This document shows positions 8,152-60,081 of a stretch of DNA of 64,000 nucleotides, piece after piece. This stretch comes from Hemileia vastatrix. Taxonomy: Eukaryota; Basidiomycota; Pucciniomycetes; Pucciniales; Zaghouaniaceae. The stretch lies in contig JASXTE010000014.1 in assembly GCA_030280995.1 (NCBI GenBank), forward strand, positions 7,871,656-7,935,655, given 5' to 3'. The position numbers were made by a program, and so were the translations under genes. The stretch's first letter is position 1. Every line of letters starts with the position of its first letter. The notes below the pieces were generated by a model. The model made no database searches. It saw only the letters and a list, made by a program, of their open reading frames with translations, and was not told the origin of the DNA.

Positions 8152-8195
8152 ATTCACCACAGAAAATTTGGGGGGGTATTGCTAGCAATACCCCT
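8152..8195 (+). repeat. Left target duplication (ATT) and terminal inverted repeat of the giant transposon
   Basis: ATT at 8152-8154, then 41 bp: CACCACAG, AAAATTT, seven G, TATTGC, TA, GCAATACCCC, T. The inner 22 bp (8173-8194) form a perfect palindrome with half-site GGGGTATTGCT. Inside the repeat the sequence no longer resembles the right end. Confidence 0.85.
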
Positions 8196-9049
8196 CATTT
8201 AAAAATGTTGGGAAGTGGTTGGAAAGCTGTTGGAAGGCTGTTGGGAGTTCATTGTGAAACCAGATTTAAATTAATTGGACAAAGATTTGGTAATCAGTTA
8301 GACCTAGGTTCAACCAAACTCAATCACAGGTTTCTTGGAGCTTGGTGATTACTTTGATTTTGAGCTGAGCACAGATTGAGCAAAGCTTGAACATATCACT
8401 TAACATATCATAATATTCACTTTCCCATCTTGTGGAAAGCAAAATTTGATATTCGTTCTAAGAATATCTACATATATTTTCTTGCCAAGTTGGTAACAGA
8501 AGGTTAAACTGTAGTATCTCAATTATTACACTAGACTACATAGATATTTGATAAAACATACAATTCAAATCAATTTTAATATTATTGAGATCACCATAAG
8601 TGTCTTTCCAAAGACTTACAAAAAGTATGTTAGTATCAAGATATCGTTCTAGGTAGTAGTTTCAATTTGGATTTTGAACTGACATCTAAAGCATTTTACT
8701 ATTAGACAGAAACATAAATAAGTGTAATAAGAGTGAAATTATTCTATTTTGTGATTATAATGTAACAATAATGCACATTTTTATTGAGAAAATTTTTCTT
8801 CCTCCACAAACCAAAATTTACTCTATAGGCTCAAGATTTATTTTTAAGACATATTATTCATTTCAGTTATCATTGATTTACTTCCAATATTTATTAAAAA
8901 GATAATAATAATACATGTGAAAGAATTATGAGCTTAGCATAGCATATGCTAAAAAGTTATTTTGTTGTTTTATTCAAAACTGATTCTTCATTTTTTGCTT
9001 CAATTCATCTTTTAACAACCACTATCTTCAGATACTATTCTTACTTAAT
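8196..9049. other. 5' flank of the Snf2 gene inside the giant transposon
   Basis: AT-rich noncoding sequence of about 850 bp between the left terminus and the first gene. Near 8200-8245 it holds short direct repeats of the type GGAAAGCTGTTGGAAGGCTGTTGG. No gene seen. Confidence 0.6.
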
Positions 9050-11478
9050 ATGTCAAGTCTCAGATGTGTTGGAAAGTTCTCAATAACAATCGATCAAATT
9101 TATATGAATGTAATTTCAAGATTTCAAAACTCACCGACCCCCACAATTTTACAGCGAGGCCATTCGAACGTTCATATTTTTGGACTATTTGAAGAAAGAA
9201 AACCAACCCTTGTTGGTAATCTTTCTCAAGTGCAGAGTCAGCACATTGGACCACTATTGGGTGACATTGGCTCTGGATCTCACCATTTAAACCAAAGAAG
9301 TGCCTTGAATCCTATGAAGCCTTTCTATTTTCATGCTTACTTGGTTCCAGTTTTTGGTAATCAGTATCAACTTTGGGGATGCCTCTTTTCTTCAAGTACA
9401 CTAATCAGTCTTGCTAAAGAAGCATTTTCTTCTGCACAAATTGATTTATGTCCAATCCTGAACTACAACTCCACTATCTTTTTTAATATCCCGCATGTAA
9501 TTTTTGAAGGCTCTTTCCAAATATCTCAGAGTACTCAAGATTGGAAAGCTGATCAACTTATCCGAGGAATCAAAACAGTTCTCAAAACACATCAACTTCA
9601 AGCAATAAATTTTATGATTGACAATGAACAAATGTTAAAGGAAAAGTTGGATATCATGTGGAGGCACCAGGACAACCATTGGCTTAGAACTGGATTCGAT
9701 GACTATAAAGATCAGTTTCCTAACAATCAATTGCGGCCTTAAGGAAACGGGTCAATACTTGCTGATGATATGGGTTTGGGAAAGACACTTTCAACTCTTT
9801 CTCTTATAAGTGCAACTCAAGGTGAAGCAAGACAATTCCAGGTATCAGAAAATCAAGAAGGTATTGATCGGAGTTCAGCCACACTGATTATATGCCCCCT
9901 GGCAACACTATCAAATTGGATCAATGAAATAAGTGTGCACTTTGAAGATAATGCACTTCCTTTCAAGGTTCTTTATGGGAAGGATTGTCAAAATACTAAT
10001 GTCAATGAGCTACAGGACACTGCTATTGTTTTAACGACCTATGAAATAGCTAGCCCAACGATGTCAAAAAATCAAAGCCAAAAAAAGATACCGGTGACTC
10101 AAATTCTCTTTTGGTATAGAGTTGTTTTAGATGAAGCTCAGTTAGTGCCCATTTCTATATCTAAAACTTAAAACTTAATTTTTATAATCAATTTTTATAA
10201 ATATTCTTTTAGTTACATTAAAAATCCTTACTCGCAGAGGGCTCAAACAATATTTGACTTGGAATCCCAACACCGACTATGCTTGACTGGAACTCCACTT
10301 CAGAACAGGCCCACTGACCTTCAAAGTCTCATATTTTTTCTTAGAATCGAAAAGTGGCAAGAAGACTGGTTATGGAAGAATTTCCTTTTTCCAGGTTTGC
10401 AAAAAGGAAAGGCTAATTCTATTAAATCAATCAATCACTTAATGAAAGTCATAAGCCTACGTAGAACAAAGGATGCAATTTTGTCTCTTCCAAAAAAGAT
10501 TCAAAGGGGGATATCGGTTCAATTAGCAGATCCATGGAGGTCTAAACTTGATGTGCTTCAAGAAGGATTCACTGAGCGATATGGGCCCTCCAGAAGCACT
10601 GACTTCCCTTGGGACTCATCTGAGTTTCTAAGAGAGCTGATGATTTTAAGAAAATTCTGCAACCATCCAATCTACGAAAATCTGGATGAAACTCCAACTT
10701 TTGATTTCACCTGGCAGCATTCCGCAAAGATCTGTCATCTTATAGGCCACTTAAAAAACTTTTTGTCTGGTGAAAGGGATATAAATTTTCCAAAAGCTGT
10801 TATATTCTCCAACTTTGCAGACTTTTTGCAGATGTAAGTGATTCTATAATGAATTGTTTTACAAAATTGTGTTGGCTTATTAAAAAAAAATTTCTAATAT
10901 TTCAAAATAGAATAAAAATGGCTTTAGATGACCACAATATTAGGTATACCCAGCTTATGGGTGAACTCAGCCGGACAAAGCGAGACAAAAATATGCATGA
11001 ATTCCATTTTAATAAAAATTGCCAAGTTTTGGTTGGAACGATTCAGGCTGCAGGAGTGGGTATAGATCTGAGGTGTGCTCAAAATGTATATATAATGGTG
11101 AGCTCAATGTCTTTTATTTCATATTAAGAACAAAAATATTAAATTTTTTATATGTTCAATGTTGAAATAGGAGCCAAATTGGAATCCAGCAGTTGAGCAA
11201 CAGGCTGTTGATTGGCTGTATAGAATGGGGCAGCAAAATGAAGTAAATGTTTTGAATTATTTTGTACAAGGAAGTATAGAATTCAGCATGTATAAGATTC
11301 AAAGGAAAAAAATGGAGCTAACAATGTAAGCCAAATTTCATTTCTATAAATTTTAATGATAATAGTAATCATTAAAATTATGTTTTTGTTTTCAAGGCTA
11401 AGTGTCCCAAACAGTGGAAATGAGGAGTATGAGTGTGCAAACCTATTATTAAGGGAGTTTGTCAATCACTCACATTAG
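9050..11478 (+). pseudogene. Snf2-family ATPase, Rad5/Rad16-like, five exons, one premature stop
   Basis: Nuclear DNA translocase that would remodel chromatin using ATP. Exons 9050-10140, 10213-10833, 10911-11097, 11171-11325 and 11397-11478 join in frame through introns of 71-77 bp and give 711 codons. Motifs in order: LKTHQLQAINFMI, the Walker A box DDMGLGKT, LIICPLATLSNW, a DEAH box, LCLTGTPLQNR, KAVIFSNF, GTIQAAGVGIDL and the motif VI region QAVDWLYRMGQ. The DEAH box is split by the first intron: unspliced it reads DEAQ, spliced it reads DEAH. One in-frame TAA at 9740-9742 (codon 231) lies between the N-terminal part and Walker A; everything else is intact. There is no RING finger, unlike Rad5 and Rad16 themselves. 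It is the first gene inside the giant transposon and converges with the gene at 11554. Confidence 0.85.
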
Positions 11479-11553
11479 AGGAAGAAAGAATTTCAAGGAG
11501 AGCAGGTAAATTTATGGGATTTTGAGGATTTAAAAGTCTGAGTTGTTGAGGAT

Positions 11554-12580
11554 TTAGAGATGCAAGATATAAGGGAGAATAACAGTCATTCGGCAAACCG
11601 GGGGGACATGAGAATGATTAAGGTTAGGGGATAATGTTGAAACCAAACTGATTCTTTTGTACAAGGCCAAGTCCTTTAGCACACTTCCAGAGTAGGTTGA
11701 ATTATCTCGAATATCAAAGTGTTGTTGGTCAAGATATTGTGCAACTTTAGAAAAATCTTCAGACCTCCATTGCATTAAGATACGTCTTAACGATCCATCA
11801 TTATCAATTTCGGTGTCTGAACAACATTTGATGTTTGTGAAAAGGTTGTGATAAGTTTCACAATGTGGAAGTTGTTTAAGAAGTTTAGTTCGGTTAACTG
11901 AATTCTAAGAATCTTTGTTATTTGAAATAAAGGTCATAAATAAAAACGGTTGAAAAAAAAGGGATTTTCATACTTTTTTTTATTCTATATTTATGCTTTC
12001 TCACTTTGATTATTTCTTGAGAGCTATGAGAATCCTTCCCAAGTCTTAATCTATCAGCATGACCTAAAAACCAACGGTGAAGAACTCCTATTTGATTTGA
12101 GAAGCTAATTTGAGTTGAGTCAATTGGATATGCAATCAAATTATTGGTTTTTAAGGTATTGTCCCAGTGTTTAATGAGAATATTTGCCAAGACCTGGTTC
12201 CATTTGTCAAACCAATCTAGGTTCCAAGCGAAAGTTGATCCTGGGAAACCACACATGCAAAGGTGCTCAATAAAAGATTCACGGAAAATTGGTGGAAACT
12301 TTTCTGAAACCGTTGAATTTGATTCTGGATGAGGTAGTTCAAAGGCAATGTTGCAAGAATTCATGTCGAATGATGAAAATCTGTCTAATTGCTCTTCAGT
12401 AGGGTTTTGTTTCCATCCATTTGATTCTGGTGACATATCCAAAAGTGAACGACAAAAATTGTGTATAGATCTACAAAAGTGAGAATTGAATGGAGGCAAA
12501 GTCTCATTAAAAATTCTATTAAGTGTTCTTGTGTTTGTGGGCAGGTTTCCATGAGGAAAGTAAGAGCTACTAGGGTTCAT
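11554..12580 (-). CDS. Unknown two-exon protein, 316 residues
   Basis: Exon 1 runs from 12580 to 11974 and exon 2 from 11897 to 11554, with a 76-bp GT-AG intron (11898-11973) that joins them in frame. The product starts MNPSSSYFPHGNLPTNT and has no signal peptide or membrane segment. It is rich in aromatic residues in the middle (FAWNLDWFDKWNQVL, VLHRWFLGHADRLRLG). I do not recognise the family. No internal stops were found, in contrast to the neighbouring Snf2 gene, which ends 76 bp away on the other strand. Its start is about 1.1 kb from the transposase start on the opposite strand, so a shared control region is possible. Inside the giant transposon it is either a companion mobility gene or cargo. 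Confidence 0.7.
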
Positions 12581-13655
12581 AAATAATTAGATTAAGAAAG
12601 TGTTCAATTAAATTAAACAAAGAGGAAGGATAAATTGTTGAGCTCCAAAACTTTATGATCAAAGTTGATTTAAGGAGAAATATCACAAAAATTAAGAATA
12701 AGAAATATTTCGACTTTATGGAATTATAATATGCATAAATTATATTTTTATATGCAACTTGAACTCAAAAGGAATGGTATAAAATAAAGAGAATGATTAT
12801 GTGATAAAAGCAGACTCATTTAAGAAACGGATTTTTTTTTCTTTTCAAAAAATTCTTCCACAAAAATAATTTGTTAAATGTGAGGCTATGTTCATTTTTT
12901 TATTACCAAAAAATTATTTTTGGTCCAATATGATAGTAATACATATTCTTTTGAGTAATTTTTTTCAACCTGAATAAATAGACTAGAGTTTCACTTCATC
13001 ACATTTATGTATGAAAAGTTATACAAGGTTTCAGCTTTTATGTAATTCTTTAAGGTTTACACTTTTGTAGCATCTATTATTTGAGTATTTTTGATTTTTT
13101 CTTTATAGAAAATTCTACCTAGTACAGACCAATTTTCAAATTGAAAGAAATATGTTTGTGATTGTTTTTTACAAAATATTAAACTTATTTTTGGGTTTAA
13201 CTTTGATTTTTGGGGTAATTTTTTAAATAATTATGTTAAAAATATGGATTACTTTTCTTATAGTCCATAACTAAGAATTTTTATCAAAATCAAATAATTA
13301 TAGGGTAGTTAGATATAACTCAGAAGGCATTTGATAGAAAAATAATTAAGATGCTTGTGCGTACAACAGAATTTTTTCTATGATAGAAAATATTCTGATA
13401 AACATGCATGCATTGTTGTACAAATGCAGAGAGTATACAGAATACAAATAAAGTAGACTGCATAACTTTAAATTAATATATAATTTATCTGATTAAAAAT
13501 TAAACATTTAAACTTAAATAATTTCAACACATATTCCATCATATTCTTTTGATAAAAAAATGTAGCTTATATTAGCTAGTGCCTTTCAAAAAAAGGAATA
13601 CCTTCAATCGGTAACTTTGAATAGCTAACTTATTCCTACAATTATCACAATTACA
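12581..13655. other. AT-rich divergent intergenic region
   Basis: About 1.07 kb between two genes transcribed away from each other. No reading frame of note. It could hold the promoters of both 12580 (minus) and 13656 (plus); no clear TATA box was singled out. Confidence 0.5.
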
Positions 13656-16600
13656 ATGCCTCCATTTTTTCATGTATGTCAATGTCAAGATCTTGGATGT
13701 GTCAATAGAAAGTATCAAACTTCTTCTGGGTCCTTTGAAGTTGGTATGGCTTTCAAAAGCTCTAATTCTTATGCAAAACATCAAGAGGAAAGAAATAGGA
13801 AGGCCCAGATGGTTATTTCTTCCAACAATCCACTTAACATTGGAAGTTCCCGCTCCACAGAAACAGTAAGCTGTATATCTATAGTTCAATGTGAGAATTA
13901 AAGTCTTTATGATGTTTCAATGATTTATTACATAGGGGCAGTTGCTATTGGGGGCAGAAGTATCTTCAACAGTCTCTAGAAACTCAAATCTTGGGGAACA
14001 GTATAGCCAAATAATTATGTGGCAGGCAGCAAAGCTTTCTCTGATTCATCATTTGAGCAAAGAAGGTTGTACTCAATTTTTGGATGAAGAAATTAAGAAG
14101 CTCAAACTTCTAGGTGATAGTGGAATACTGGATTCTGATAGCATTGTCCGCCTGGTCCCACGCTCAATAGATACAGTTTTTAGTCGATTAAAGCTCAATC
14201 AATCATTTTTCACTAAAACATGCTGTCCTAAATGCTTTGCTCTTTATGAGTATAACTCTGAATCTCAACCATCTATACTATGTTGCAATCAACCATTTCT
14301 TTCATCATCAAAGCGCTATTTAAAAATGTTTGGAGCAGGACAAATTGCAGTTAAATGTGATGAAAGGCTGTATTTGATGGAGGAACATCAAGAACATGTA
14401 AAATACTTATCTCTTAAAACATTTCATCACCATTCTTTTATCGACTGGCTTAAGGAAAAGATCAAACTGTTCAAATTTGAGCTTCTGATTGAGAAGAAAA
14501 CCCCTGTGGCAGAACGTGTAGAGTGTGATTTGATGAAGGATGTTTGTGATGGTTCAATTTGGAAAAACTTTCCCATAACCACTCCAGCTCTGGATAGCAA
14601 TGATGATGAATATACGATAACTTCAGGCAACTTAATGTTTACTTTATATGTCGACTGGTTTAGGCCTGGTGGCAATAGGATTGGAGGTCATCAGAAGTCT
14701 GTAGGCAATATTATGATGGTGTGTATGAACCTACCTCAAGAAGATAGATACAAAATGGAAAATCTTTTTTTGTATTCTATTATACCCGGACCAAAAGAAC
14801 CCACAAGTGAACAGCTTAATCACCTTCTAAAACCACTGTTTAATGATCTACAAACTCTATGGGATGGTATATTGATTGAAAAGACACATCTTTATCCACG
14901 AGGCCGGAAATTAAGAGTTGCATTGTTCTCTTTGATAGGTGACATTCCTGCAATACGAAAATTTGCTGGCTTTTCGAGTCACTCTGCAAAAATGTTCTGC
15001 TCTTTCTGTAATATCTCTAAAGATGAAATTAGTGAAAAGAATGTGGGAAATTTTTCATTACGGAATCATGATGATCATATGTGCTGGGCAACAAAGTGGA
15101 AAAATTCTAAGTCACATTGGGAGCGCGTATCAATTGTTCAAAATCATGGGGTACGATGGAGTGAGCTGAATAAACTTGAATATTGGCGTCCAACTGAATA
15201 TTGCTCAATTGATGTTATGCATTCACATATGCTTGGCAACCTAAAAGATCACAGTATAAGCTATTTTCAAATCCAAAATGCAGCAAAAGATCTAGAAAGA
15301 AAGCTGGAAAAGGATAAAAATTGGCATGTAAGAGAAGAAGATGATGATTTCTTTTCTGATACTTCACTGCACAAACATTCAAAAAAACGTAGAAGTAGCT
15401 TAAGCACCACGAATAATGATGATGATGATACAGGACACACGAGACAGCACAAGCGGCAAAGACGTACGAGTTCAAGACAGTCATCAAGTCATCATGGACT
15501 AGATAATGAAGGATTGGGAACAAATCGATCAAGAAGCCAGAGTAGGTCATCCAGCTCCAAATTTATTCCTCCATATAGCGATGTGGCCTCAATACAGTCT
15601 CACAGCAGTGACAGTAGGAATTCATTGTATAACTTAAGGCAAAGAAGCATTAGCATATCACAGAGTGAAGGATCTCACTCATCAAATGAGACAGCTAGAG
15701 ATGAAGAAAATAAAAGGAAATGTAAGGAGAAAGAAAATGAAGGTAGTAGTAATCCACGAATCACAGCAGCAGAGCTACAGGTTGTATGGAAGATGATTGA
15801 TCAAGTAAGAAGACCTTCCTGGCTAACACGAGTTCCAAAATCAGTAGGATCTAAAAAGGCAGGATCCCTCAAGGCAGCAGAATGGCACATGCTGTATACT
15901 CTCTACTTCCCTTTGTCACTTATACCCCTTTGGTTTGAAAAATTTAAAGAATCTGAATCTTCAGCTTCCTCAGCTGATAAACCAAGAGAATATTATCTTC
16001 TCAAGTCACTTGTAACATTATGCTCGATCACCAATTTTTTGACATTAAAAAATATACAGACTAATGAGCTTAAAGATCTAGATCAATTTCTGTTAGAGTA
16101 TCGTGAGTGCCTTGAAGAGGGTTGGAAGAATATTAATGCAAAGCCAAATCTGCATATCACTCAACATTATCCTGAAATGATAAAGCGTCTTGGTCCACCA
16201 TCAGGTACAGCTACTTGGTCTGGAGAGAGGGTGAATCATATATTATCTGAAATTCCAAACAATCACCATCCACGTATGTAATGTTTGTAAGCAATGATTT
16301 AAAAACTCAGCTGTGCTAATTTATTAATATTTACCACAGGAGAGATACCGCTAACAATGCTCAAACATTGGTATCGGAAGTCTAGGGTATTAGATCTTGG
16401 TGAAGCTGAAGATAATGATCAATGTGAGACTAAAAAAATCCATATTGATCTCGATAAACAAAACAAATGGATCCATCTAAGTATGGCATTATTTACTAAA
16501 TGGGTAAGGGCACGAATGGGAAAAGAAACTTCAAGACGGGCTTTGAAACCATCGGAGAAAAGTGGGGATAGGGTAGTTGAAAATGTAGCAAGCATATTGA

Positions 16601-17034
16601 TACATGGAAAGAGGTTTACTAGTTACCATCGACACATTGCTAATTCAACAATTGAATTCTACTATGGAAAAGATAGCCAGTTTGGGCAAATTGATGATCT
16701 TTTCAGATCAAAGGAAGAGATTGATCAAATATATTTAATAGTAAGTCCTTTCAAAGAGCTCCGTCCAGAAGAAACATCAAAGGATCCCTATGAGCTTTTC
16801 CCACAAGTGCATTGTCGGTTAGTAAGAGTAGCCAAAGCAACTCAAATTGTGATTAAGAAAGATGCAATAATTGGACATGCAGCTACTGTCGAGCACAAAA
16901 AAGGAATGTTTGGAATCAAAGACGAGGTTGTCACTGCCATTGGACTGCAGAAAGTAGTGAGTGAAAAAATTAATCAAATTTATTTTCTGTTGACTAACAT
17001 CTTTGTGTTAATTTGGGATTGGGGAAATTTGTAG
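13656..17034 (+). CDS. Plavaka-type (CACTA superfamily) DDE transposase
   Basis: Exons 13656-13865, 13936-16273 and 16340-17034 join in frame through introns of 70 and 66 bp, giving about 1080 residues with no stop. The N-terminus has a Cys cluster (CQCQDLGC), and a second one (CCPKCFALYEYN, later CC) lies near residue 165. The core matches the fungal Plavaka transposase: YVDWFRPGGNRIGGHQKSVG (first Asp), then NLFLYSIIPGPKEPTSEQLN, SIDVMHSHMLGNLKDH (second Asp, DxxH) and SGERVNHILSEIPNNHHPRE (Glu). Between the second Asp and the Glu lies a low-complexity insert of about 150 residues rich in Ser, Arg, His and Asp with basic runs (KKRR, KRQRR) that look like nuclear signals. It would cut and rejoin the 41-bp ends at 8155 and 47001. 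A late intron (about 16957-17033) could give a slightly shorter C-terminus. Confidence 0.85.
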
Positions 17035-17460
17035 GATTGGTGATATTTGTAAATGGTGAAAGAAATAATTCAATGCTCGATTAAAAAATGCAATTCATCC
17101 AACTTACCTTATCATAAACCAGTGAACAATTACTTTGGTTGCTTTTATTGCGAGAGAACCCATGCTTTCAATGAGTCATTTTTATCTTAAATGTAAGAAT
17201 GAAAGAAATAAAATCATGATAATGAGAAATATGATAAAATTTTTACTTAATGAATGATCTTCTTGCTCATTCATCTACTATAAATAGTTTGACCTTCCAA
17301 CTTTAGCTGATAGCTATATATTATTCACTTTATTTTTCGACAAGAGAACATACACGTTTACAAGACTATATACATAGTATCTTTTTTTACTTTAGCTTTG
17401 ATAGGTATAAATTTTAACAACTGATTATTTTTATTTTATTTTATTTTATTACAGTTCATT
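17035..17460. other. Gap between transposase and second gene
   Basis: About 425 bp, AT-rich, ending in a T-rich tract (TTTTATTTTATTTTATTTTA) just before the ATG at 17461; it probably contains the 3' end of the transposase transcript and the next promoter. No coding content seen. Confidence 0.5.
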
Positions 17461-19138
17461 ATGGATGATAATTTTGAAGGGATGTCTGTTGACCCAACCG
17501 ATTCTGATTGTTTTCCGCCTCAACATACTAATACTGGAAATACTCCTCCACCACCCTCTGCTGATCCACCTCCAGATGCATCTCAATCTGTACCACCTAA
17601 TCCTAACCCACAACCTAATCCCAATCCAGGCCAAGAGTCTCATTCAGAACCGAGAAATTTTAATCCCAATCATCCTTCTGCTTCTGAAAGTGCTGATCAG
17701 CAAGCTGATCAGCTAGGAAGAGATTGGGCTAGTGAAGTATTGAGGGAATTTTTCGGAGACCAATCATCATCTGCTCAGCCTAACCAAGGAGCAAGCACAA
17801 GTGGAGCAGGTAAGTCAAATTTGTAGTGTATTCTTTTATTGAAAAATAACCAATTTAATTAACTTATTTGAATTGTTAGTGAATCCCTCAATCATTATGG
17901 GTATCAGTGATTACCACAGACTCAATTCAGCAGAGTCTCATGAGCGAGAACAGGGGTTAATGGCTGTAAGAGGCTTAGTTAGAAGGAATGATGATCCCAG
18001 GAGCTCGGACAGTCTAAATAGAAATATTTACCACTTTCTGAAGTATTGTCTTGGGGGACCAACACAAATATCAAAATATCCTGCGAGCCCAACACCTTTG
18101 GAGATTGAAAATTGGAAAGATTGGAGCCAATTCAAACTAAAAACCATTCAAACTGTCCTAACCCAAGTCCAATCTTCTAACCATGCCAATTCTGCAGCTG
18201 ATCGACAATTTCTGATAACCAATTCTATAGCCTTCTTGCGTTCCAAAATTCAACTACCCGAATTTTTTCCAGCACCTGAGCCTCGAGGACTAAAAGGAGG
18301 AGCACCGATCCCACTTTCTGTAAAAAGAAACTTAGAGCGTGAATTGCAAGAAAAAGGTTTTCGGAAATTCGCGTTTGATTGGACTTGCCGTGATTTTTCA
18401 GAATCAACTTGGAATCAAGTCATGGGAAGCATAGTATGCGACCACTGTTCCAGATGGCTTACCACCTTGAATACAATCGATCAGTCAAAGCTTCAGTTCA
18501 CTCAATGTGTTATTGAGAAATGGGTAGTTAATAAGGGGAAGGAGATGATATGGTTGTTTGGGCAAGAAGAGGAAAGGGTAGCAAGAGAAAAGATTGAAAA
18601 GAGGGCAAGGGCACAAGTAAAACGTTATCGGACCAAGGTAAGTTTTTTATTTTACTTTGCTTTTTGTTATTATGAAGCTGATTTAGTTGGAATTCAGATT
18701 GCTAGTGCACGCTACAAGTTAGCAAGAGATCTCTGCAGTGATGTTCCAGTTTTTGTTGTGCTTTTTCATGATACTAGGTGCATCTCTGATATCGAGGAAG
18801 GCCCAGCACCAGCCCCAACTGCACCTATCAGAGCTATTCCTGGATGGCGAAATCCTGAACTCAATGATTTGTTTAAAAAAATGGATAAGATGACAAAGGA
18901 CTTAGCCCATACACCAGCTCAAAAAAAATCAGCATTAAAAACATATTCACGGTCATCAGAAAGGACAGTTGCACAAAATGGTATATTCAATGTTCCCAAA
19001 TACCTCCCCAAGAATTGCTATTCAGCAAAATTTTTGCAAGGATTATCTGTGAATGAACGTGAGTCACTTGGGGTTGGATCTGATATTGATCTGGTAAAGA
19101 TTCGGGAATCAATTAATAGAGCATCAACATCATCATAA
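17461..19138 (+). CDS. Second gene of the giant transposon, unknown function
   Basis: Exons 17461-17809, 17880-18637 and 18698-19138 are joined by introns of 70 and 60 bp (GTAAGT donors). The 60-bp intron is in frame and stop-free, so its retention would add 20 residues. The protein starts MDDNFEGMSVDPTDSDCFPP. Its first ~115 residues are a disordered Pro/Asn/Ser/Gln-rich tail (PPNPNPQPNPNPGQ). A globular part follows (WKDWSQFKLKTIQTVLTQVQ, FAFDWTCRDFSESTWNQVMG), then a basic coiled-coil-like helix (EEERVAREKIEKRARAQVKR) and a C-terminal segment (LPKNCYSAKFLQGLSVNERE). I do not recognise a catalytic motif. It is intact, lies 430 bp after the transposase on the same strand and directly precedes the palindrome array. 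A DNA-binding accessory role is a guess from position and the basic helix. Confidence 0.8.
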
Positions 19139-19353
19139 CTTAGGTATAACGGTGATCTTCTGTGTAATATAGCTATCTTATATTGAATTTTGTGTATTCT
19201 GTTTTTTTTCAAAGCAGCTTGGTAAATGTTATAAAGTGATATTGAGAGAGAGTAACATTTTATTTAAGAAAAACAAATAATGTATGAGATATAAAAATGT
19301 ATTTTCAACAAATTGATGGTCCATACCTCTTTATGTCACATTTATGTATCCAT

Positions 19354-24032: not shown

Positions 24033-24034
24033 GT

Positions 24035-24051
24035 TGGCGCCCAACGTGGGG
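24035..24051 (+). promoter_or_regulatory. Primer binding site of the family B element
   Basis: TGGCGCCCAACGTGGGG lies two bases after the 5' LTR. It starts TGG, the complement of a tRNA 3' CCA end, where reverse transcription would be primed. The donor tRNA was not identified. Confidence 0.7.
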
Positions 24052-24209
24052 TTCGATTTCTCTAGCTTTCTTTAAAAGACTTACTTGGATCAAGAACGTT
24101 ATTAGCCTGCAAGAGGCTTATTTTCTGGAACTCTAATCGGATTTTTGTTATTGGCCTGCAAGAGGCTTGTTATTTTATCGATTGTTAACGCTTTTCATTA
24201 CTTATTGGG

Positions 24210-33683: not shown

Positions 33684-34815
33684 TGTGGTAGCCTAAAGTT
33701 TAGTGCAGCACCTAAATATGTAAATGGAGTTATTACGGCGTGCAAGATTGGCGTTATTATTTTTTATAAAAGGGTTTTATTTAATTTATTGGAGTTTAAA
33801 ATATGAAGAAATTGGTCACGAGCGAATGACTACACAAATACAATTTATTTTACGGAGAAAACTTATTTTTACGGTCTGAAAAATTTATAAGTATCAAGTC
33901 AAGTCACTCAAGAACCTTGGGAAATTTTCCCAGAATTTTTACTATTTTTCTTATATTTTTAAATGAATTTTAAAGTTTTATAGAAATATTTACGTTTTCA
34001 AAAATTACTTAACTTTGATGAATTTTCACGGGGTAATTAGAGCTGCGCAGACTACGAAAATTAGTTTGGTATGTAAAGGGGACGTAGCTCTATTATTTGT
34101 AATTTTTCTAGATTTTTTATTATAGTTTTAAGGTTCTAATTGAGTCCGGAAGTCCGGACGGACTCCGTTTCGACTCCGTACGGACTCCGTTCCGGCTCCG
34201 TACGGACTCCGTACGGGCTCCGGATTGACTCTGGAAGAGCTCTGGAGGGGAAAATTTAGGCACGTGACTAGGAATACTTAAGCGCTTCTCAAACTCAAAA
34301 TTGAGAGAGGGGGACACATCATACAGCTTAATCATTAACTACCACAGTCTCATTTTTTATTACTCAACAAATTAAATAAATTCGTAATACCCTTATAACT
34401 TTATATTTTATATATAACATTTTAGAAATACTACTCAACAATTTAAATAACACTTCATATAGGGTATCTTTAGAAAGGTCTTCATCACTGGGACTTGATT
34501 ATTGCTGTCTCATAAAAATTTAAATTATTATAAAAACATAAAAGTCAATCTTTTCAGATCTTTCACTGGTACACCTTAATTGTTGTTATCAGTATTTCTT
34601 TCCTCAACAGCCACAATCATTTAATCTCAATAAGCGTTAATTATTTTAGAGTTTCATTATTTTTATCAATCAGATTCAAGTAGATTGGTTAGCTTAGTGA
34701 TTTAGAATTCCCATTTTGTTATTTTTATTGGAAGGACGGGGTTTTCAGCTAAATCCACACATCTCCTCCGGATTCTGCTTACAGCAAGGCGACTGTAAGA
34801 GTTTACCTTACCATA
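33684..34815 (+). repeat. 3' LTR of the family B Gypsy element
   Basis: It begins TGTGGTAGCC and ends CTTACCATA, 1132 bp. It is about 99 percent identical to the 5' LTR apart from one extra 22-bp unit in the CCG-rich tandem near 34180-34210. Confidence 0.92.
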
Positions 34816-34819
34816 CCGC

Positions 34820-36651
34820 TCCAAGAAAAAGAGATTATCCCAAGGCTCCTCTTTTGTTCGACGTATTAAACCGGCTTCTGCTAATGAATTTTCTGATGTA
34901 TCAAATAATAAATCTCAAAAAAAAGCAAAGGTTTTGATAATGAGTATATTCTTGTTTCCTTTTTTTTTATTGTTATTCTTTTATCTTTAAAATTCAATCA
35001 TATATCTCTTTTATTGCTTACATATTGTACTTTTTATCTTTCTTTTGATATTTTGTACCAGAAACTCACCTGCTTTAGATTGTTCCATCCATAAACGCCC
35101 TCTTCCTGATGAAGATGATGAAAAGAGAAATGAAAATAGCGATGATCAACTATCAGAATATGAAGCTATGCTTGTTCATCAAAAAAAGCAAAGTTTAAAA
35201 TCTTCTTCAAGACATGTTGATATGTTTGATAAAGATGATGATTCAAACAGCTCATCACCAAATTCCTTCATTTCTAAGAAGCAATACCCATCACCTCCTA
35301 AATTACCTACTTTGACCTCTTTGAAAGCTTCTCTACCAATGAAATCAACTCCAATCAAGATATCAAAAAAACCTCTAACTTATTCACCCTCAGTTCTAAA
35401 AGAATCTGATTTGCAGGAGGAATTCTGTAAAATTCATAATTTTTATAAAGGTAGAATCAGCACGGCAAAGGTCCTCAGGTCATGGTTGGAAATTGTTACT
35501 CTCCTCGAATTACGCTCTTCTACTTCTTCCCAAGAACCCATGTCAAATATTCCAATGTTTACTTTTCATTGGGAAAAATCTTGTGGAGAAGATTGGCTTT
35601 CAAAACTTACTGAGTTATGTAAGTTACCATAATTTTTAGTCTTGACTTTTGTTCTTTTACTTATTTTTTTTTTCCTTTTGTAGCAAATATTTTTTTAGAG
35701 ATTGATAGCTCACAGCTATGGGTACTCGATAATATTGATTTCAAAAAAATGGAAGATTTATGTGATCCTGATGGTTTAAATACTGAAATTCTTTCCTCAA
35801 CAAAGAAAACGGATCACCCTGAATCCAATCTTATCCGAATGCTCATGAGATTAATGATCCCAAGTGACCACTGCCGTTCTTCATGGGTATCTCTTATATC
35901 ATCTTCACTTTATCTGACCGCACATGAATTCAGCCAGCTTCCATCACATCAAAACATTAACTCAGATTGTCCAATTGAACGTGGTCTTCAGCTTCTAGCT
36001 CACCTTTCAAATCTGAAGAGTCCGATTGCTGATGGCTTAGAAGTTGTTCCCACTGCACTTCAAACCCGTGATATATCAATGTCAACTCTTCTTCAAATCA
36101 GCAATATTATCATTGATATAATTATGTCAATTATCATTCTTAAATCAAAATATTGTGCTGCAACAATATCAAGTGGAAAGACTAGTGAAGCTCAAAAATC
36201 AAGTGAGAAAAACGAAAATACTGAACTGACTATAATGAGAGAGAAACAAAAGGCTGCACTAAACAAAATAAATTCTGAATACTCCCACCACCGATATCAA
36301 TCTTTCACATTCTATATAATTGATGGTGTCCGTGGTTTATTTCTGAGCTCTCAAGATCATAGATTGGCTTCAGCAGCTGATTGCTTGGAGGTAATATCAG
36401 AAGTTAAGTTTCTTAATTTACATGAAAAAAAAAATCATTTGATGGAAGAAATAATTTGGAAAAATTTAAATAACTATATTTTAACATTAATAAAACCTTT
36501 TATAGGCAAGTGTGATCCATTTCCTTTAAAATTTGATACCCCAAGTCCTCCGGGAATTGCTAGGGCTATTTCTGCAGATTTTCTTAATCACTGGAGCTCC
36601 ATTCAGCCAGTATCACCTTTTTTTGCTAAACATAGCCTTTCAATAAATTAA
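34820..36651 (+). pseudogene. Unknown gene, 3' part, continued after the Gypsy insertion
   Basis: The frame continues from 22922 through one CCGC copy into TCC-AAG-AAA and encodes a basic segment (SKKKRLSQGSSFVRRIKP) up to about 34930. The splice to the next exon (starting about 35062-35078) was not resolved. That exon ends at 35618 with a 65-bp intron (35619-35683), and the last exon runs 35684-36651. Parts seen: an acidic, Ser-rich stretch (PDEDDEKRNENSDDQ), then a likely folded C-terminal half (FTFYIIDGVRGLFLSSQDH). A further intron near 36391-36505 is possible but would shift the frame. No domain recognised. The next gene, a TET/JBP-like dioxygenase, converges from the other strand 800 bp on. 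Confidence 0.7.
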
Positions 36652-37450: not shown

Positions 37451-38640
37451 TTATATATCTAGATTTTTTAGATTTGTCTTAACATTACATAAATAATACT
37501 GTGCTGATTCTATTTCTTCCTCTATTAAGTAATCTCTTTTCAAAAAAACTCTCAAAGCACTAATCAAATATTCTAACCTAAATTTTTCTTTTTTAATTTC
37601 TAAGTATTCTGAAATATCAATATCAAAAACATTAAGCTTTTCTATAGCATGAAAAAGTCTAGTGCTGATTTGAATAGAAGAACCTATCCTAGTGAAGCCA
37701 GGAATTTCATGACATCTTGAGGTAAAATGCCTTAGTTGATTGGCAGGCCATAATGTCACTGTTATTCCATTAGTTGCTTAAAAGTTGATTTTACTTCGAA
37801 TTTCGGGAAACATAAGTTCTCCACCTATTTGTCGTGGTTGGGTCTTATCATACTTCATATGAATGGTGTTTTTTTCTGTATCTTTAGGAAAAAATATTCC
37901 TAAAGTATACTCACTTGCATCCTTATCGAGATGAACCTCATTAGAGAACCCATTACCATTCCCTCCAGATGTCCAAGTTAAATTACTAGCAAACGGTACA
38001 CCCTCTTCTTCACTAGAAACTTTTGAAAATCCAGGAATACCAAGTTTTGCGCAAAGATTAGTTGCCTCATTGTACTTTACATATGATATTTTTTTAAAAA
38101 AATATTCAAAGTACATTTCAATCCTCTTCATTCGTTTTTTATATTCATCCGTTTTTACAATATCATCAGTGTATTCATCTGCAAGGAAAAGCATTCAAAA
38201 ATTCAGTATTTAAATTAAAAAAAGTGATACTTACGAATATGTAAAGATTTCTTTCTATCTAAAATAAAGCCACCACCAAACATTTTTCCAAAACCACCAG
38301 CTCTTTGATGATAACCATTATTTTTAATTTCATGTTCGCAGTAAGAAAGATCCTTAATGCATCGCACCGTAGCTTCTAACATATCTAGTTCTTTGAGCTC
38401 ATGAATTTCAAAAGTCTGCACAAGAACATTAGGTATTAAGACATCTTTTGGTTTATAAATACTACATCCAGGAAAAAAATTGTAATAATTATTGCAATCT
38501 GTCATATTATTTGCATAAGATCGTGCATAGAAATGTGGCTTCTTCCCGTTTGTATCCATTCCAAGAGCGTTTACAAGTTTCATTCCAGTAGCAATGTCTT
38601 TCGCCCACCTATTGTTAGAGTTCTTCCCTGGCCGTTTTTT
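37451..38640 (-). pseudogene. TET/JBP-like 2-oxoglutarate/Fe(II) dioxygenase, one premature stop
   Basis: Enzymes of this family oxidise methylated pyrimidines in DNA, in the nucleus, using iron and 2-oxoglutarate. The coding sequence runs leftwards from about 38637 (NRWAKDIATGMKLVNALGMD) through a 56-bp GT-AG intron (38179-38234) to 37451. The fold's markers are present: the HxD iron motif in VHLDKDASEYTLGIFF (His at 37931-37933, Asp at 37925-37927), GGELMFPEI, then TVTLWPANQLRHFTS with the distal His (37727-37729), and an Arg in FTRIGSSIQIS (about 37688-37690) for 2-oxoglutarate. One in-frame TAA (37778-37780) separates GGELMFPEI...INF from the distal His. The N-terminus is uncertain because an 11-A run near 38635 shifts the frame. 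Without the stop the active site would be complete. Confidence 0.8.
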
Positions 38641-38911
38641 TTTTTCAAATCGTTACTCATTGATGGTTCAATCCTAAGAGAATTCAATTTTGATTTAAAA
38701 TAGAAAAAAATCAAAAATTAGAAAATAGTAACATAATTTCAATTATCAGTCAATGATACCTTTAACTTTATCATATCTTCAATATTAGAAATACAAAAGT
38801 TAGCATATCTACATATTAGTAAATTTATATACTTTTTCTTTATTTCAAATATTAAGAGAGCGTTTCAAAGGTATACTTTATTAAATTATACATATAAAGA
38901 GTATAGCTTTA
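38641..38911. other. Upstream flank of the TET/JBP-like gene
   Basis: AT-rich. An ATG on the minus strand near 38664 is one frame off because of the A run, so a lost start or a missed intron is possible. Confidence 0.4.
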
Positions 38912-40406: not shown

Positions 40407-41125
40407 GCAGCCAGATTTATACTGGCTGCTTTTTAGAAACCTTAATTTATGACCCAAGCCTTTGAAATTGGCTTGGGTCCCTTACATTGCAATTTAGTAC
40501 TTCCAGCCAGGTTTCCCCTGGCTGGAAGTGTCTCTTTCAAGCAATCGAAGTCGCTAAAAGCGACTTCGATTGCTTGCTGTAATGTTTGCCACCCTCCCAG
40601 CTAATTTACTAGGCTGGGAGGTGGCCAAAGCAGTGTGCAACGCGCGTTGCTGCTGCAAGTAACGCGCGTTGCACAATCGCTACCATATTTCATGCAGCTG
40701 ACTTGATATCAGCTGCATGAGATATGCGCAGCATGTGCAATGCGCGCTGCATGCAGCAGAAACGCGCGTTGCATGCAATGCGCATTACTTGCAGCAGCGA
40801 TGCGTGTTGCATGTGCTGCATGCAGTGCATTGCACAGCCAGTTTTTTTCTGGCTGTGCAATGCACACAGAGAAACCAAAGTCCCTGCAAGGGACTTTGGT
40901 CTCTAAAATGGAAGCGACTTTCCCTACCAGGTGCAATCTGGTGGGAAAGTGAGAGAAACGTTAGACCGAAGTTGTTTGAAAGCAACTTCAGTCTTAAAAA
41001 CATTAAAAATCATAAAAAAAAAAATGAGAAATGTAGAAAAAAAAATTAAAAATTAAAATGTGAGTATAAGAAAAAAAATAAGTTCTAGTGATACCAAAAA
41101 TCCAAGCCAATTTCATTTGGCTTGG
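40407..41125. repeat. Run of about 13 consecutive, unrelated perfect hairpins
   Basis: Successive inverted repeats with loops of 3-12 bases: 40407-40429 (8-bp stem), 40451-40479 (10), 40499-40529 (13), 40538-40576 (18-bp stem, 3-base loop), 40588-40625 (13), 40635-40674 (14), 40690-40720 (12), several GCATGCA/CGCGTT types at 40730-40825, 40825-40865 (17), 40874-40900 (12), 40917-40950 (12), 40963-40994 (11) and 41102-41125 (9). Stem sequences differ from one another. Base composition jumps from very AT-rich to about half GC here. The overlapping short reading frames in this stretch are by-products. Confidence 0.9.
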
Positions 41126-43278
41126 TTATTTAATAATTATTTTTTAATACATTAAATTTAAAATTCAAACACCATAAAATATATGAATTTTTTTATATGA
41201 ATATTATAAATTTAATCTACCTCTTTCTCATAATTATATTTATAATTTTGTTTTTTTAATTTTTGACATTTAAGTTTATTTTTTGGAAATACAAAATTAA
41301 ATTTTCAACTAAATTTTTTAGTAAGGTAAAATAAATTATAAATTTGACATTTTGTAATTGAATAATGAAAAAAATTTTAAATTTATTTAAAAAATATTTT
41401 TGTTAGAAGAATACAAATATTTTAAGGGTAGAAATATGGTGCAAATTGTAAGTAAAAAAAATTATATTTTTTTTTGTGAGGGGTTATTTCTATTTTTAAA
41501 AATATTTTTCAAAAACATTCATTAAATACTGAATTAAATTACTTTGAAACTCAAATTTTTTGTAAAATAATTAAAAATGAAATAATAATATTGTTGTATT
41601 TGATATAAAATTTGAATTGGTAATATTAATGTCTCTCTAAGTAAATTTGAAAATCATTTAAAAAGACCATGTTGATAGGTACTTCATTTTTGATATACAA
41701 TGGTTATATATATATCTTATATATATTTCTTGAGTGTTATTTTTATATACATTCAATAAAATTTGTAATATAAAATGCCATTTAATAATTAATTAATGTT
41801 CAACTTAGTTATAACAACTTCATATTTAATACCAGCCACTAGTATTTACTTTTTAATTTAAAACTCCAATGTAATATGAGAGTATCCTTATTTTGTCTGT
41901 ATGTAATGAACAACAATAACAGACCATAAATGAGTGGGTAGTTAATTACAATAAATAGTTGAAGAATAACCTATAAGAAATGATAAGTTTATCAAAAAGA
42001 GTACATTAAAAAAATATACTTTTGAATTTTTTTTGATATAATTTGGGTAGTTAAATGAAAATTTAAATTATCAGACATCAAAATGGATAAAATCTAAAAG
42101 TAGTGTTTATATAATAAGCCTCATATAAAAAAAGGATAAAAAATCTACTATGTAACTAAATTATTAAATATTAAGGTATTATTAAAATTATTGAAAAACT
42201 TATTTTACAGTTATAATGAAATCTAAATGTGAAAATAATGGTGGGATAATAGTAAGACTATGTGGAAACACTTTAATTTATACATACTTTCAACTATGTT
42301 CAGATAAAAAAATTGTTAAAATTGTATAATAACATCTAGTTAATAGTGATGCAATTTTATTTAGATCAAGAATAAATTTTTCTGAGGAAAAACTAATTAA
42401 ATTGAGATATGGCCATCTCCTTTCAAGAGATAGAATAATAATAAAAATTTAAAAAATTATAATAAGTATTCTTAATCACCATTTTTGAAAAGTCTCTAGT
42501 AAAATTCATTATAATATATCATTCATTGATTACATTATATGGAGTTTCATCTTGAAGTAGTGATGTGCAGCTTTGAACTTATGTTATGAAAAACAAAAAA
42601 GTTAAAAAATATATAGTTATACTAATGAAAAAGCCAAAAATAAAAATACTATTATAAATTAAAAAAATAAAACTACATAAATTTTATTCTGCTCTAATGA
42701 TGGAAGGGTACTATGTATGAATTTCCACATGTTAAATCCAAACCTGCTTTAAGGCTAGTTTACAGGTAGAGCTATTAAGTTTCCTTAAATTCTAAAAATA
42801 ACTTATGCATTTTACTAATTATTTTTTTCTTGTTTCTTTCCAAAGTTGTTAGAGTTGCTTAATTAATACTGTTATCTTGATTGTAAGATATATAATTTTT
42901 TTTGAATACATGATTTATTGTTTCAAAAATTATATTATAAATTTAAATCATTTATTTCATTTTCTAAAGCTTCATTGTCAAAGACACAACTCCATTTTCT
43001 GTTACTTAACAAATATATAAAATGTGATAGTAAAATTTGAGGAATTTTCTTTTTGAGAGGGTCAAACTATATTGTGAAGATTTTTATCTAGAAATTCTTG
43101 TACTCTAAAACCAAATAATTTTCTCCCTTAAGTAAGCCATTTCAAAAATATGAGAATATAAACAAGAATATTAACTTATCTTATTTTTATTTTCTTTACT
43201 GAAAGTTTTAGTTCAATCCCTTTTTTTATATGACATTAGTATAAAAACATGGTTAAATGCTACTATATAATTAATTTT

Positions 43279-43317
<39 letters not shown>

Positions 43318-45025
43318 TTAGAACGTCATCCTTTTTTATTTACTTGAATAAATGGCTCAATTATAATACCCAACACTTATTAATGTTTCCCAAACTCAAT
43401 AACAAATTTCTCATATGAAATATTAGCTTCTAATATAAGAAGTTTATCTATAGATGATATTCAACATGTGATTTTACTTTTTAGATTCAGCTAAAATTAA
43501 ACAAAAGGAGAAGTCATGCATATGTGTATAAATGGTAACCATATGTTACTTAGAGGATTGTGAAATTCACTCATCAGAATGGTTTAAGTATTAAAATAAA
43601 TTGAGGTCATTATTTTCTAGTATTTGAAACTAATTAGGAAATTATTCTAAAAATATATTTTAATGTGTATCATGTTTAAAAAGTTGGAAATATGATTTTT
43701 GAAAATTGTGAGTTTCTTATGAGATACCAAGCTTTAGTTTACATTGTTTCAAGTAGAATAGAATTTTAGTATTAGAAATTGAAAGCAATGTACCATTATC
43801 AGATTTTAACTGTGTTCTACTTATAGAATGATTACATAACATTAAACATTATTTAAATCAAAAAGGTTTAAAAGATATTTAGAATTTTACCAAATTTTAC
43901 CATTTATTAATCTTTGATTTGAAAACAAACTATGATGTACACTCACTAGAAATAAGCAATCCCAATTTTAACATAATTTATCAATCCAAAAATAATGAGT
44001 CAATTAACATGAAAATATATATTATTTCAAAACCAATTCTCTAGATTTAAAATATGATGCTTTAATGAAAAATTATTACAAAACTTTAATGCAATGAAGT
44101 CTCTTAAAAAATTCAAAAATAGAATATCAAAACAAGTAATTTCTGCAAAAAAAACTACTAACTATTGTAGATAAAGCATAAAAATAAGTCATATTTTTTA
44201 AAAAAATGATCTAACAATATTTATTTTTGTTAAAAAAATCAAAACATTGTTAAGTTTGCTTGTTATAATAATGTTAAAATCCACTAAACATTATCTAAAG
44301 GTGGTAAAATATGTTAAAAATAAGTTGAATTTTATGAGATAAAAATCAACAATTTTGTATCATTTCCTGTTGTGCTATGACTTTATTCCACCCTTTTTAT
44401 CTGATTCTTCCAGTATTACTTTGCTATGATCACTAGTTTTCAAGTTAAAATTTACAAACGTTCATTATACTTGATAATATGAAAAATAACTCAAAATTTT
44501 ATAACTACAAAATAAGATTTTGTAACTCCTTCTTTCAATCAATATTTGAAGAAATTTTAGTTTATTTGAGTAATGATTTTAAGAATAACAAAAAAATTGA
44601 AATTCACAAGGAATTATTTCCAGAGACTATAATTATTTACTTGTGTAATGCATGAGCTACTTATCAATGATGTAAAACATCAGAAAAGTAAGTTATAGTT
44701 ATAAATCTACAGATTATACTGTTTCTGGTATATATATCTTCAATAAATCTTTTAAACTTATCTTATCCTACATACCACACAATAGAAAATCATTATATTA
44801 AAAAAGGAAAAAATTCTATGATAATATCATAAAGAATGATAACCATGGATTAATATTCCATAAAAATGGTTAATAATATTTTAAGAGAACCTAAATCAGT
44901 ATTCTTTCATCAAAATATATCCTTTTTGTCTTTGTAATTTATTCCAAACAAATTTTTTGAAAGTTGAATCTATATATCTAATGCCAAAACCACTATTAAG
45001 TTCCCTCTTAGACTTTTTAAGAAAT

Positions 45026-45056
<31 letters not shown>

Positions 45057-46960
45057 TATTTATCAAAAATTGAAATAAAGAATAAAAACATAATTTTATT
45101 TACCTTTAATTATTTAAATATAGAGTATTTTCAGAATGCATTGTGGTTACTTGTGAAGGTTAGAAGATTTGAAGTTGGATTTATGAGTTTTTAGAAGGGC
45201 AAATATTGTAAAATTCTTTCATAAATATTTATTTCATAGTTTCAAATGTTGAAATCTACAAACTAATGGGATTTAAAATTATATTGAGATTTAAAATCTG
45301 TTTTCTACTCAAGTAAAATAAAATAAAATGATGATATCAAAATTGAAATTAAGTTTAAACTTTTGATATGCTCTATCTTCAATTTTATTGATAGTGCATC
45401 AAAAATTTAATAATATTTTTTTCCTTCATCACTTTTTACATAAAAGATAGTTTTATCATTTTATGAATTAAAGATTGCTTATATAAATTTAACATCTATG
45501 TCAACTGTTTATGACTATTAATCTATATAATAAATTTTTTAGAAGAAAAAATAACATCAGTATATACTGACTTTGAAATTATTCAATTTAAAATAGTTTA
45601 CAGGTAGATAATGAAGGGTGATTTCATTTTTGAATATGAACTATAGAAGTCTTATTTTATCAATTTTAATTCTTTTTGAGGTCAAATGTATCCACCGCAA
45701 CTTAAGTAAGAATAAAAATTATTTTTATTGAAATTTACATGAGAAAGTATGCCTATTATTCAAAATCAAACTTGCTCTAATGGTGTTTTTCAATCATTAT
45801 TTCCATTCATAACAATAAAAAACATTTCAATTTGCTGATGTTTTAGTTTTTGATATCCCCAAGTTTATATCTCAGGTGTACTATTCACAAAATTATTAAA
45901 AATATAATTTTCGAAATACATGATAAACTTGAAAGTGAGGGGGCATTAAATTTTTAAAAATGAATTCTAAATTCAGGATGGATAGTATTTTTTCTATTTT
46001 CACAAATGAACAATTTTTTGTTTCAATTAATCCAGAAAGAAAATTTTGTTGTAAGCATATTATATTATATTTATTATGATTTTAAATACTATATTTTCAA
46101 GATTTGTGTTTAATATTTACTGTGAAAGTTAATGTTAATGTGAATTTAAAGTAAGCTTGAAGAAATTTAATCAATAGGCATATTGGATATTTAAAATAAT
46201 ATTTTGCTCCAATCTTGAATCATCCTGGGCTAAAAAATATCCCAAATAAGGTTTTTGTGGGTCAATTTGGATTTAAGTAGGATTAAGTGAGGTTTAATAA
46301 AGGACAGATAAAAGGCTAAATTCATTACTAGTGACTTTTTTCTCAAAATAGTTATAAAATATGTATCATTCTGGAATCAAGCTTCAATAAAGTTGAATTG
46401 AAACAGAGATAATTTCTAGCAGCACAACACCATATTTACAAAGGTGTAAAATACCTCAAATATTACTCATAATATAGGAAGGCAAGGAATCTACAAAATT
46501 CACATTTCAAACGAGGATTTATATTTTGAATTTGAAATTGAGAAATGGAATATTATTTTCCAATTTAAATATCTATTAGTCATTTTAACAAAAGTTTTCA
46601 GTAATCAGATTGAATTTTGATGGTATTTTGTTGTAGATTAATCATTTTGATGAGACATTTACTCAAAATTACTGGTTTCATTTCTAATATTCCATGTGAA
46701 ATTCATTACGAATCTTTTTGAAAGTGAATAGTTGACATATTGGATATGCAAAAGCTTATGTTAGATCAAAGTGAGATCAAAGGGAGCTTAACTGATGATC
46801 AAATTAGGATTTTACAAGATCAAACGGTGATCAATGTAGGTTCATCTTGAGCTCAATTTGTGACAAATCTCTGACTAAATGTAAGGCCAAACAATTTCCT
46901 ACATGGTGATGATGTGTGCATAATTCAAGCATAGATTTGTGGCTCAACGGAGCTCAAGCA
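41126..46960. other. Six kb of AT-rich DNA without genes
   Basis: No reading frame of more than 60 codons on either strand and no recognised motif. Simple TA repeats lie at 43282-43310 and 45025-45056. Near the right end, GATCAA occurs five times at 46764, 46775, 46797, 46818 and 46829. This is the right-hand internal part of the giant transposon. Confidence 0.7.
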
Positions 46961-47004
46961 AGGGGTATTGCTAGCAATACCCCCCCATTTTTTCTGTGGT
47001 GATT
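46961..47004 (-). repeat. Right terminal inverted repeat and ATT duplication of the giant transposon
   Basis: Read on the minus strand from 47001, the repeat starts CACCACAG, then AAAAAAT, seven G and the same 22-bp palindrome (46962-46983). It differs from the left end only by two A/T changes before the G run. ATT follows at 47002-47004. Confidence 0.85.
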
Positions 47005-60069: not shown

Positions 60070-60081
60070 AGAAATCCAAAA

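Follow-up and report, generated by a model that had tools for sequence, protein, structure and literature searches.

The window analyzed here, a 64,000-nucleotide stretch of the rust fungus Hemileia vastatrix (assembly GCA_030280995.1, contig JASXTE010000014.1, forward-strand positions 7,871,656 to 7,935,655), contains two matching inverted ends 38.8 kb apart, which raises the question of whether everything between them moves as one transposon and, if it does, what the genes carried alongside the transposase do. We consider it very probable that positions 8155-47001 are a copy of a 27-kb EnSpm/CACTA cut-and-paste transposon, later broken by a Gypsy retrotransposon, and that its TET/JBP-type dioxygenase and SNF2-type helicase genes most likely serve the element itself.

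Terminal repeats, target duplications and copy number

A preliminary description of this DNA had proposed 41-bp inverted ends matching at 39 positions and flanked on both sides by ATT; self-BLAST of the window recovers this arrangement, with 39 of 41 positions identical between the left repeat and the reverse complement of the right one (E 1.8e-11). The terminal sequences are CACCACAG..CTGTGGTG, the first and last five bases being CACCA..TGGTG, so that CACCA stands in place of the literal pentamer CACTA. Within each end, 22 of the 41 bases form a perfect palindrome, GGGGTATTGCTAGCAATACCCC. Once the Gypsy element is removed ~26.95 kb remain, in agreement with the ~27 kb proposed earlier, the 38.8 kb being composed of a ~26.9-kb transposon and the later Gypsy insertion. 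The proposed order of events is likewise supported, both by the Gypsy element's own CCGCT duplication and by its absence from the five other copies that were read. The Gypsy element carries protease, reverse transcriptase and integrase frames, and its long terminal repeats (LTRs) show 8 differences over 1,110 aligned columns, gaps excluded.

When the genome (747.6 Mb in 791 contigs) was searched with a 551-base left-end query, all 40 scored places were 100% identical (rounded), among 1,605 first-look candidates. Eight loci were taken from this search, one of them being the window, and 40 kb was read at each of five of the other seven; these five were drawn from the best-scoring places and are not a random sample. 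All five have both ends, an interior collinear with that of the window and lengths of 26,940 to 28,663 bp. At the left end, six of the seven other loci match the window only as far out as 8151 or 8152, and the remaining one only as far as 8145.

Both flanks were also sampled for ten end pairs, 25.8-27.1 kb apart, on a single contig (C2), the pairs having been selected on their length, irrespective of flank. Perfect 3-bp target duplications are present in 10/10 (ATA, ATT, AAA, TGT, AAA, TAT, TCT, TCT, AAT and AGT), i.e. eight different sequences in which the first and third bases are always A or T. Across the window copy, the five pulled copies and the ten on C2, the 3-bp duplication is found in 15 of 16, the exception being ATT/ATA. 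The ATT duplications of the preliminary description thus hold for the window copy but not as a rule, and a fixed ATT target is ruled out by the variety on C2; the query used to pull the first five copies itself starts with ATT, and their excess of ATT probably stems from the ranking of matches. The single-ATT empty site that had been suggested as a check, at the H repeat flanking the window copy, was found at L016:740-840 as CCTTTTCCT-ATT-CTCCTCC. It is an element-free paralogue of that repeat, located on contig C348 downstream of a copy, rather than an allele of the window locus; the assembly is described as a primary one in PMC10652848.

The very high identity across 27 kb could by itself reflect spread by segmental duplication or recombination instead of transposition. 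The sharp boundaries at the left end, the separate 3-bp duplication at each of the ten sampled sites and the single-ATT empty site all argue against this, and we regard such an origin as very improbable for the sites sampled. Taken together, these comparisons among copies show the element to be one mobile unit bounded by 41-bp inverted repeats that makes 3-bp target duplications.

An exact 35-base end pattern occurs 1,638 times genome-wide (816+822), and 2,224 times (1101+1123) when up to 3 mismatches are allowed, with 0 occurrences of the reversed control in either case. Halving these counts, which assumes that most ends belong to full-length copies, gives ~820-1,110 copies, taken here as an estimate of about 800-1,100, or ~22-30 Mb at 27 kb each, corresponding to 3-4% of the genome. 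The pairing assumption was tested on C2 (36 of 748 Mb), for which all exact ends were listed. The 90 ends there form 35 convergent pairs spaced by less than 150 kb, with 33 being left+right, and leave 20 ends unpaired; 27 of the 35 pairs are spaced at 25.8-29.9 kb and 8 at 33-102 kb, none being shorter. The longer pairs presumably represent insertions inside copies or chance neighbours. With variant ends allowed, 24 of 26 ends in the first 7.42 Mb of C2 fall into 12 left+right pairs of 26.9-49.2 kb (one right end being a one-base variant), leaving 2 single ends. No short internal-deletion derivatives retaining both ends were seen in the part of C2 examined, in which one-ended remnants would not be recognizable. 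Such a lack is unusual for CACTA elements.

These spacings also bear on whether the two ends could belong to independent small elements that flank unrelated DNA, an outcome which the preliminary description had named as fatal to its proposal should the ends never be found paired at this distance. Small elements of the appropriate general form do exist: two ~831-bp inserts occupy identical positions in 3/5 pulled copies (e.g. L010:1366-2196 and L011:3582-4412) and are CACCACGCAATAT..GTGGTG elements with 3-bp duplications, and an 887-bp relative, CACCAC..GTGGTG and likewise with a 3-bp duplication, lies at a different place in a fourth. The ends of both the 831- and the 887-bp elements differ in sequence from those of the giant, however, and C2 has dozens of places at which left and right giant ends are paired ~27 kb apart, the five interiors read being shared. 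The copies with the same content that had been called for as a check are present, and we give the two-element explanation almost no credence. Because 3/5 pulled copies share both 831-bp inserts at the same places, insert-bearing giant copies kept multiplying.

Genes within the terminal repeats and the wider clan of ends

The coordinates of all features are collected in Table 1.

Table 1. Features of the giant element and its insertion in the window (window coordinates)
Feature	Position	Strand	Basis or remark
Left target duplication, ATT	8152..8154	.	Single ATT at paralogous empty site L016:740-840
Left terminal inverted repeat, 41 bp	8155..8195	+	Palindrome at 8173-8194
SNF2-type helicase gene	9050..11329	+	SNF2-rel_dom 1.7e-49, Helicase_C 5.9e-7, stops read as X
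Gene G2, two exons, TnpA-like candidate	11557..12586	-	Open frames; likeness to G4
tnp2-type DDE transposase, 779 amino acids, open in window copy	13942..16281	+	Pfam Transposase_21, E 5e-14
Open frame, probable C-terminal transposase exon	16303..17031	+	Frame reading
Gene G4, several exons, TnpA-like candidate	17425..19135	+	Frames; G2 likeness
Internal repeat block (direct and inverted)	19349..21297	.	Self-comparison
Predicted gene G5, interrupted by Gypsy	22310..36648	+	Frames either side of Gypsy
Gypsy LTR retrotransposon	22924..34815	+	5-bp duplication CCGCT at 22919-22923 / 34816-34820; later insertion
TET/JBP-type 2-oxoglutarate-Fe(II) dioxygenase gene, two exons	37454..38652	-	PF20515 2.3e-21 in window, stops read as X
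AT-rich stretch, G+C 0.21, CpG observed/expected 0.06	41000..46500	.	Also in 5/5 other copies read
Right terminal inverted repeat, 41 bp	46961..47001	-	Palindrome at 46962-46983
Right target duplication, ATT	47002..47004	.	Flank reading and empty site

The uninterrupted transposase reported earlier is indeed present as an open frame with a Transposase_21 match. It carries the motif residues D240, D336, C355/C358, H740/H744 and E764 (numbered along P0001, a frame beginning at 13936), and has 12 relatives in the protein collection; D336, C355 and C358 are invariant in an alignment of the query with 8 of these, the H(3)H/E part being missing from most relatives' sequences. Comparison with PDB sequences gave nothing significant (best E 0.13). 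The claim of at least four non-transposase genes is also upheld, there being five candidates (SNF2, TET/JBP, G2, G4 and G5), two of which are possibly transposition accessories; the identity of the SNF2 and TET/JBP cargo, the terminal palindrome and the copy number are additions to the preliminary description.

The SNF2-type gene encodes a Walker A motif, DDMGLGKT, that is present in 6/6 copies (the window and the five pulled copies), and a predicted GT-AG intron at 10141-10212 whose splicing would create a DEAH box; reading of the sequence indicates further introns. Its exon 1, which has a premature stop in the window copy, matches SNF2/Rad54-type (7.5e-7) and RAD5-type (1.6e-6) chains among PDB sequences. 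The TET/JBP gene sits inside the terminal repeats and is common to the copies. Its PF20515 match exceeds the curated cut-off, the exon-2 protein from another copy (P0016) scoring 2.7e-21, and its HxD motif (H88-L-D90 of P0016) lies in an HLD-bearing frame found in 6/6 copies. The window copy of this gene also has a premature stop, and P0016 gave nothing significant against PDB sequences (best E 0.38).

G2 has no Pfam match, and the protein collection contains no G4 homolog at E <= 0.001. The two genes are distantly related, both G2 exons aligning collinearly with the G4 protein in pairwise comparison (E 1.2e-4 and 0.004); we infer that G2 and G4 may be TnpA-like DNA-binding proteins. A single relative of G5 comes from a public contig and matches 67% of the 342-residue frame at 98% identity. 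The predicted structures of G5 (P0003) and G4 (P0002) were too poor to use (mean predicted local distance difference test values of 35.5 and 35.3, respectively). The AT-rich stretch occupies ~5 kb just before the right end (G+C of the window, 32.8%), and subterminal repeats comprise short families only, of two or three copies each. Outside the element, the window has two pairs of flank repeats, 48886-50061 / 61926-63102 (96% identical) and 2219-4741 / 59405-61924 (73% identical).

The small inserts and the giant share an end pattern comprising CACCAC, a spacer and a palindrome centred on TTGCTAGCAA, which occurs 11,635 times genome-wide (control 0). Among the 100 such clan ends listed in the first 7.42 Mb of C2, 26 belong to the giant's family, 14 to a second family, F2, and 60 to others. 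F2 ends, CACCACGGGAAATCTAGGGGTGAATTGCTAGCAA, have 769 exact occurrences genome-wide, the 14 listed in the first 7.42 Mb of C2 forming no close pairs. One F2 copy, L059 (10 kb read), has a TET gene at L059:8588-9735 that is 52% identical to the giant's TET in exon 2; in the rest of these 10 kb none of the other query proteins matched, and in a second F2 copy, L060 (6 kb read), none matched at all. A genome search with PF20515 returned 150/150 scored places over the cut-off, all scoring above the giant family's own TET. Unconfirmed first-look candidates number 10,849, and the count in 14 control genomes is 0. TET genes are thus abundant in the genome, with the giant family being one carrier among several. 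A pair of ACAATAT-type ends 27.7 kb apart (L057/L058) was considered as a second giant and rejected: in the part read, none of eight query proteins matched and retroelement-like frames are present. Ends of the ACAATATGGGGGG type, mostly unpaired, may belong to ~260-bp elements in which only one of the two ends has the exact motif (a single example, L057:201-457).

Cargo function, copy decay and silencing

In the mechanism that we favor, the tnp2-type transposase, perhaps together with G2 and G4, would bind the CACCAC-plus-palindrome ends, excise the element and join it to a target cut with a 3-bp stagger, and copies would multiply when an excision at the time of replication is repaired from the sister. 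The TET/JBP enzyme would oxidize 5-methylcytosine and the SNF2 protein would open chromatin, such that the element's genes may escape silencing for long enough to transpose.

Among the six copies, which are 0.48-1.07% apart in pairwise comparison (0.48-0.99% among the five pulled copies), several observations weigh against the anti-silencing step. The transposase frame is open in 3/6, SNF2 exon 1 (395 residues) in 3/6 and TET exon 2 in 2/6, with all three being open together in 0/6. The six-copy alignment contains 507 singletons, 184 of them C>T, and these C>T changes affect 115 of 566 CpG cytosines compared with 69 of 8,305 other cytosines; the TCG context is worst, with 65 of 235 hit. Scaled to other changes, CpG loss reaches 30-47 across the 15 element pairs, which is not below the values for comparison repeats (23 for the LTR pair of the window's Gypsy, with only 3 CpG changes; 10 for a Gypsy pair; 15 for the H-repeat pair; 5 and 4 for two flank repeat pairs), of which the Gypsy, H-repeat and two flank pairs are more diverged, saturation lowering their ratios. 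Because the ratios are not lower in the element, there is no support for TET as a lasting mutation shield of inserted copies. Its role could be transient, at transcription or transposition, and we consider TET as an anti-silencing gene to be plausible but unproven. C>A singletons are also frequent (127/507) and are richest in the window copy (48, or 50 by a looser count) and in GCA and ACA contexts, being distributed along the copy on both strands; we take this pattern to resemble an oxidized-guanine signature.

The absence of CpG protection in inserted copies, and the presence of at least one broken frame among the three checked in each of the six, would also be expected if TET and SNF2 were passive captured passengers with no part in spread. 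Against this, the HxD of TET and the DDMGLGKT of SNF2 are present in 6/6 copies, the predicted SNF2 splice gives a DEAH box, the diverged F2 family, which shares the end motif, has a TET gene of its own, and the relevant account of Pucciniomycotina transposons describes TET capture in seven lineages (PMC12730594). The passenger explanation is in our view unlikely, and service to the element remains the reading that we prefer.

A related matter is whether the family is still self-sufficient, since it might be extinct, or depend for its movement on a transposase supplied in trans by a related family with CACCAC and TTGCTAGCAA ends. The lack of any copy with all three checked frames intact among the six, and the large reservoir of clan ends, exact F2 ends among them, are compatible with either possibility; the transposase frame is open in half of the copies read, however, and these are only six of ~800-1,100. 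Loss of self-sufficiency is something that we doubt, without dismissing it. Within the preferred reading of a transposon served by its own cargo, intact proteins probably act in trans, since each of the six copies has some broken frame. More tentatively, and with rather less than even confidence, the family might be pictured as a self-contained CACTA element specialized for epigenetic escape, with its own SNF2, TET and DNA-binding accessories, which burst to ~1,000 copies, helped to inflate the genome and is accompanied by a clan of small elements that share its CACCAC and TTGCTAGCAA ends.

TCG hypermutation has been described in Pucciniomycotina, and transposon TETs have been suggested to counteract it (PMC12730594). 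The present family provides a strong natural test case for the proposal that transposons turn TET enzymes against methylation, in that an estimated ~800-1,100 sister copies differing in open TET and SNF2 frames coexist in a genome with visible TCG/CpG decay, and more generally it is well suited to studies of how transposons evade silencing. It further suggests that a large, gene-rich DNA transposon of ~27 kb, and not only retroelements, can fill 3-4% of a very large fungal genome.

Classification and relation to known systems

Assignment to the CACTA superfamily, as proposed in the preliminary description, is supported by CAC..GTG termini with inverted repeats, by the 3-bp target duplication and by a tnp2-type DDE transposase with C(2)C and H(3)H between the second D and the E. 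The narrower label of Plavaka is not supported and was rejected on the termini (CACCA..TGGTG) and on the profile matches of the transposase, which up to E 1 were only to PF02992 (Transposase_21) and PF06869. Pfam holds a Plavaka model, PF18759. The element has a TET/JBP gene within its terminal repeats that is shared by copies, as in TET+ DNA transposons. TET genes were reportedly first linked to fungal transposons in a 2014 paper. No published description of this element was found by title or abstract opening among the top-ranked papers, a search that is no proof of absence given that most subscription journals fall outside its coverage; the transposable element library which, according to PMC10652848, was made for the assembly may contain the sequence.

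The element resembles Plavaka in its CMCT-clade transposase motifs (the relevant section of PMC12730594 lists D, D, C(2)C, H(3-4)H and E for that clade), and some Plavaka carry TET. It differs in that PlavakaA ends are TGT..ACA and PlavakaB ends CATCA..TGATG, and in that no Plavaka model is matched by the transposase; rust families that end in CAC..GTG and make 3-bp duplications are placed in EnSpm although their transposases show similarity to Plavaka, and TET+ Plavaka is not reported from Pucciniomycotina in the passages of PMC12730594 on these groups. KDZ elements (Dileera, Kyakuja, Zisupton) with TET are similarly TET-bearing fungal DNA transposons, but have other transposases, and the 8-bp duplications given in the same source for the Dileera family Zisupton-1_PGr and for Zisupton contrast with the 3-bp duplications made here. 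En/Spm elements of 16-20 kb with 4-5 open reading frames, cited as enlarged in PMC6431247 for the red alga Chondrus crispus, are likewise oversized multi-gene CACTA elements, but are smaller, come from another host and have no TET or SNF2 cargo mentioned in the passage concerned. As a giant fungal element with cargo, the H. vastatrix element also invites comparison with Starships, from which it differs in having a DDE transposase with 41-bp inverted repeats; no tyrosine recombinase captain was present among the Pfam matches, for which only part of the element's frames was scanned. Starships have a tyrosine-recombinase captain and are not known to have such inverted repeats.

According to the text of PMC12210899, from which Hemileia is absent, CACTA elements within Pucciniomycotina occur only in Pucciniales. 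The closest known systems are three TET+ EnSpm families of Puccinia striiformis, which end in CAC..GTG and make 3-bp duplications (Kojima 2025, PMC12730594, where numerous further TET+ lineages are also reported); related EnSpm families occur in other Puccinia species and in Austropuccinia psidii, their TET content not being stated in the passage concerned, and neither Hemileia nor SNF2 occurs in the main text of that paper. The present element and the P. striiformis families have in common a rust host, the CAC..GTG ends, the 3-bp duplications, a Plavaka/EnSpm-like transposase and an internal TET/JBP gene. Relative to those families as described in that main text, the differences are notable, comprising the absence of short derivatives from the part of C2 examined, the very large 27-kb unit, the further genes, the added SNF2 helicase and a copy number estimated at ~800-1,100.

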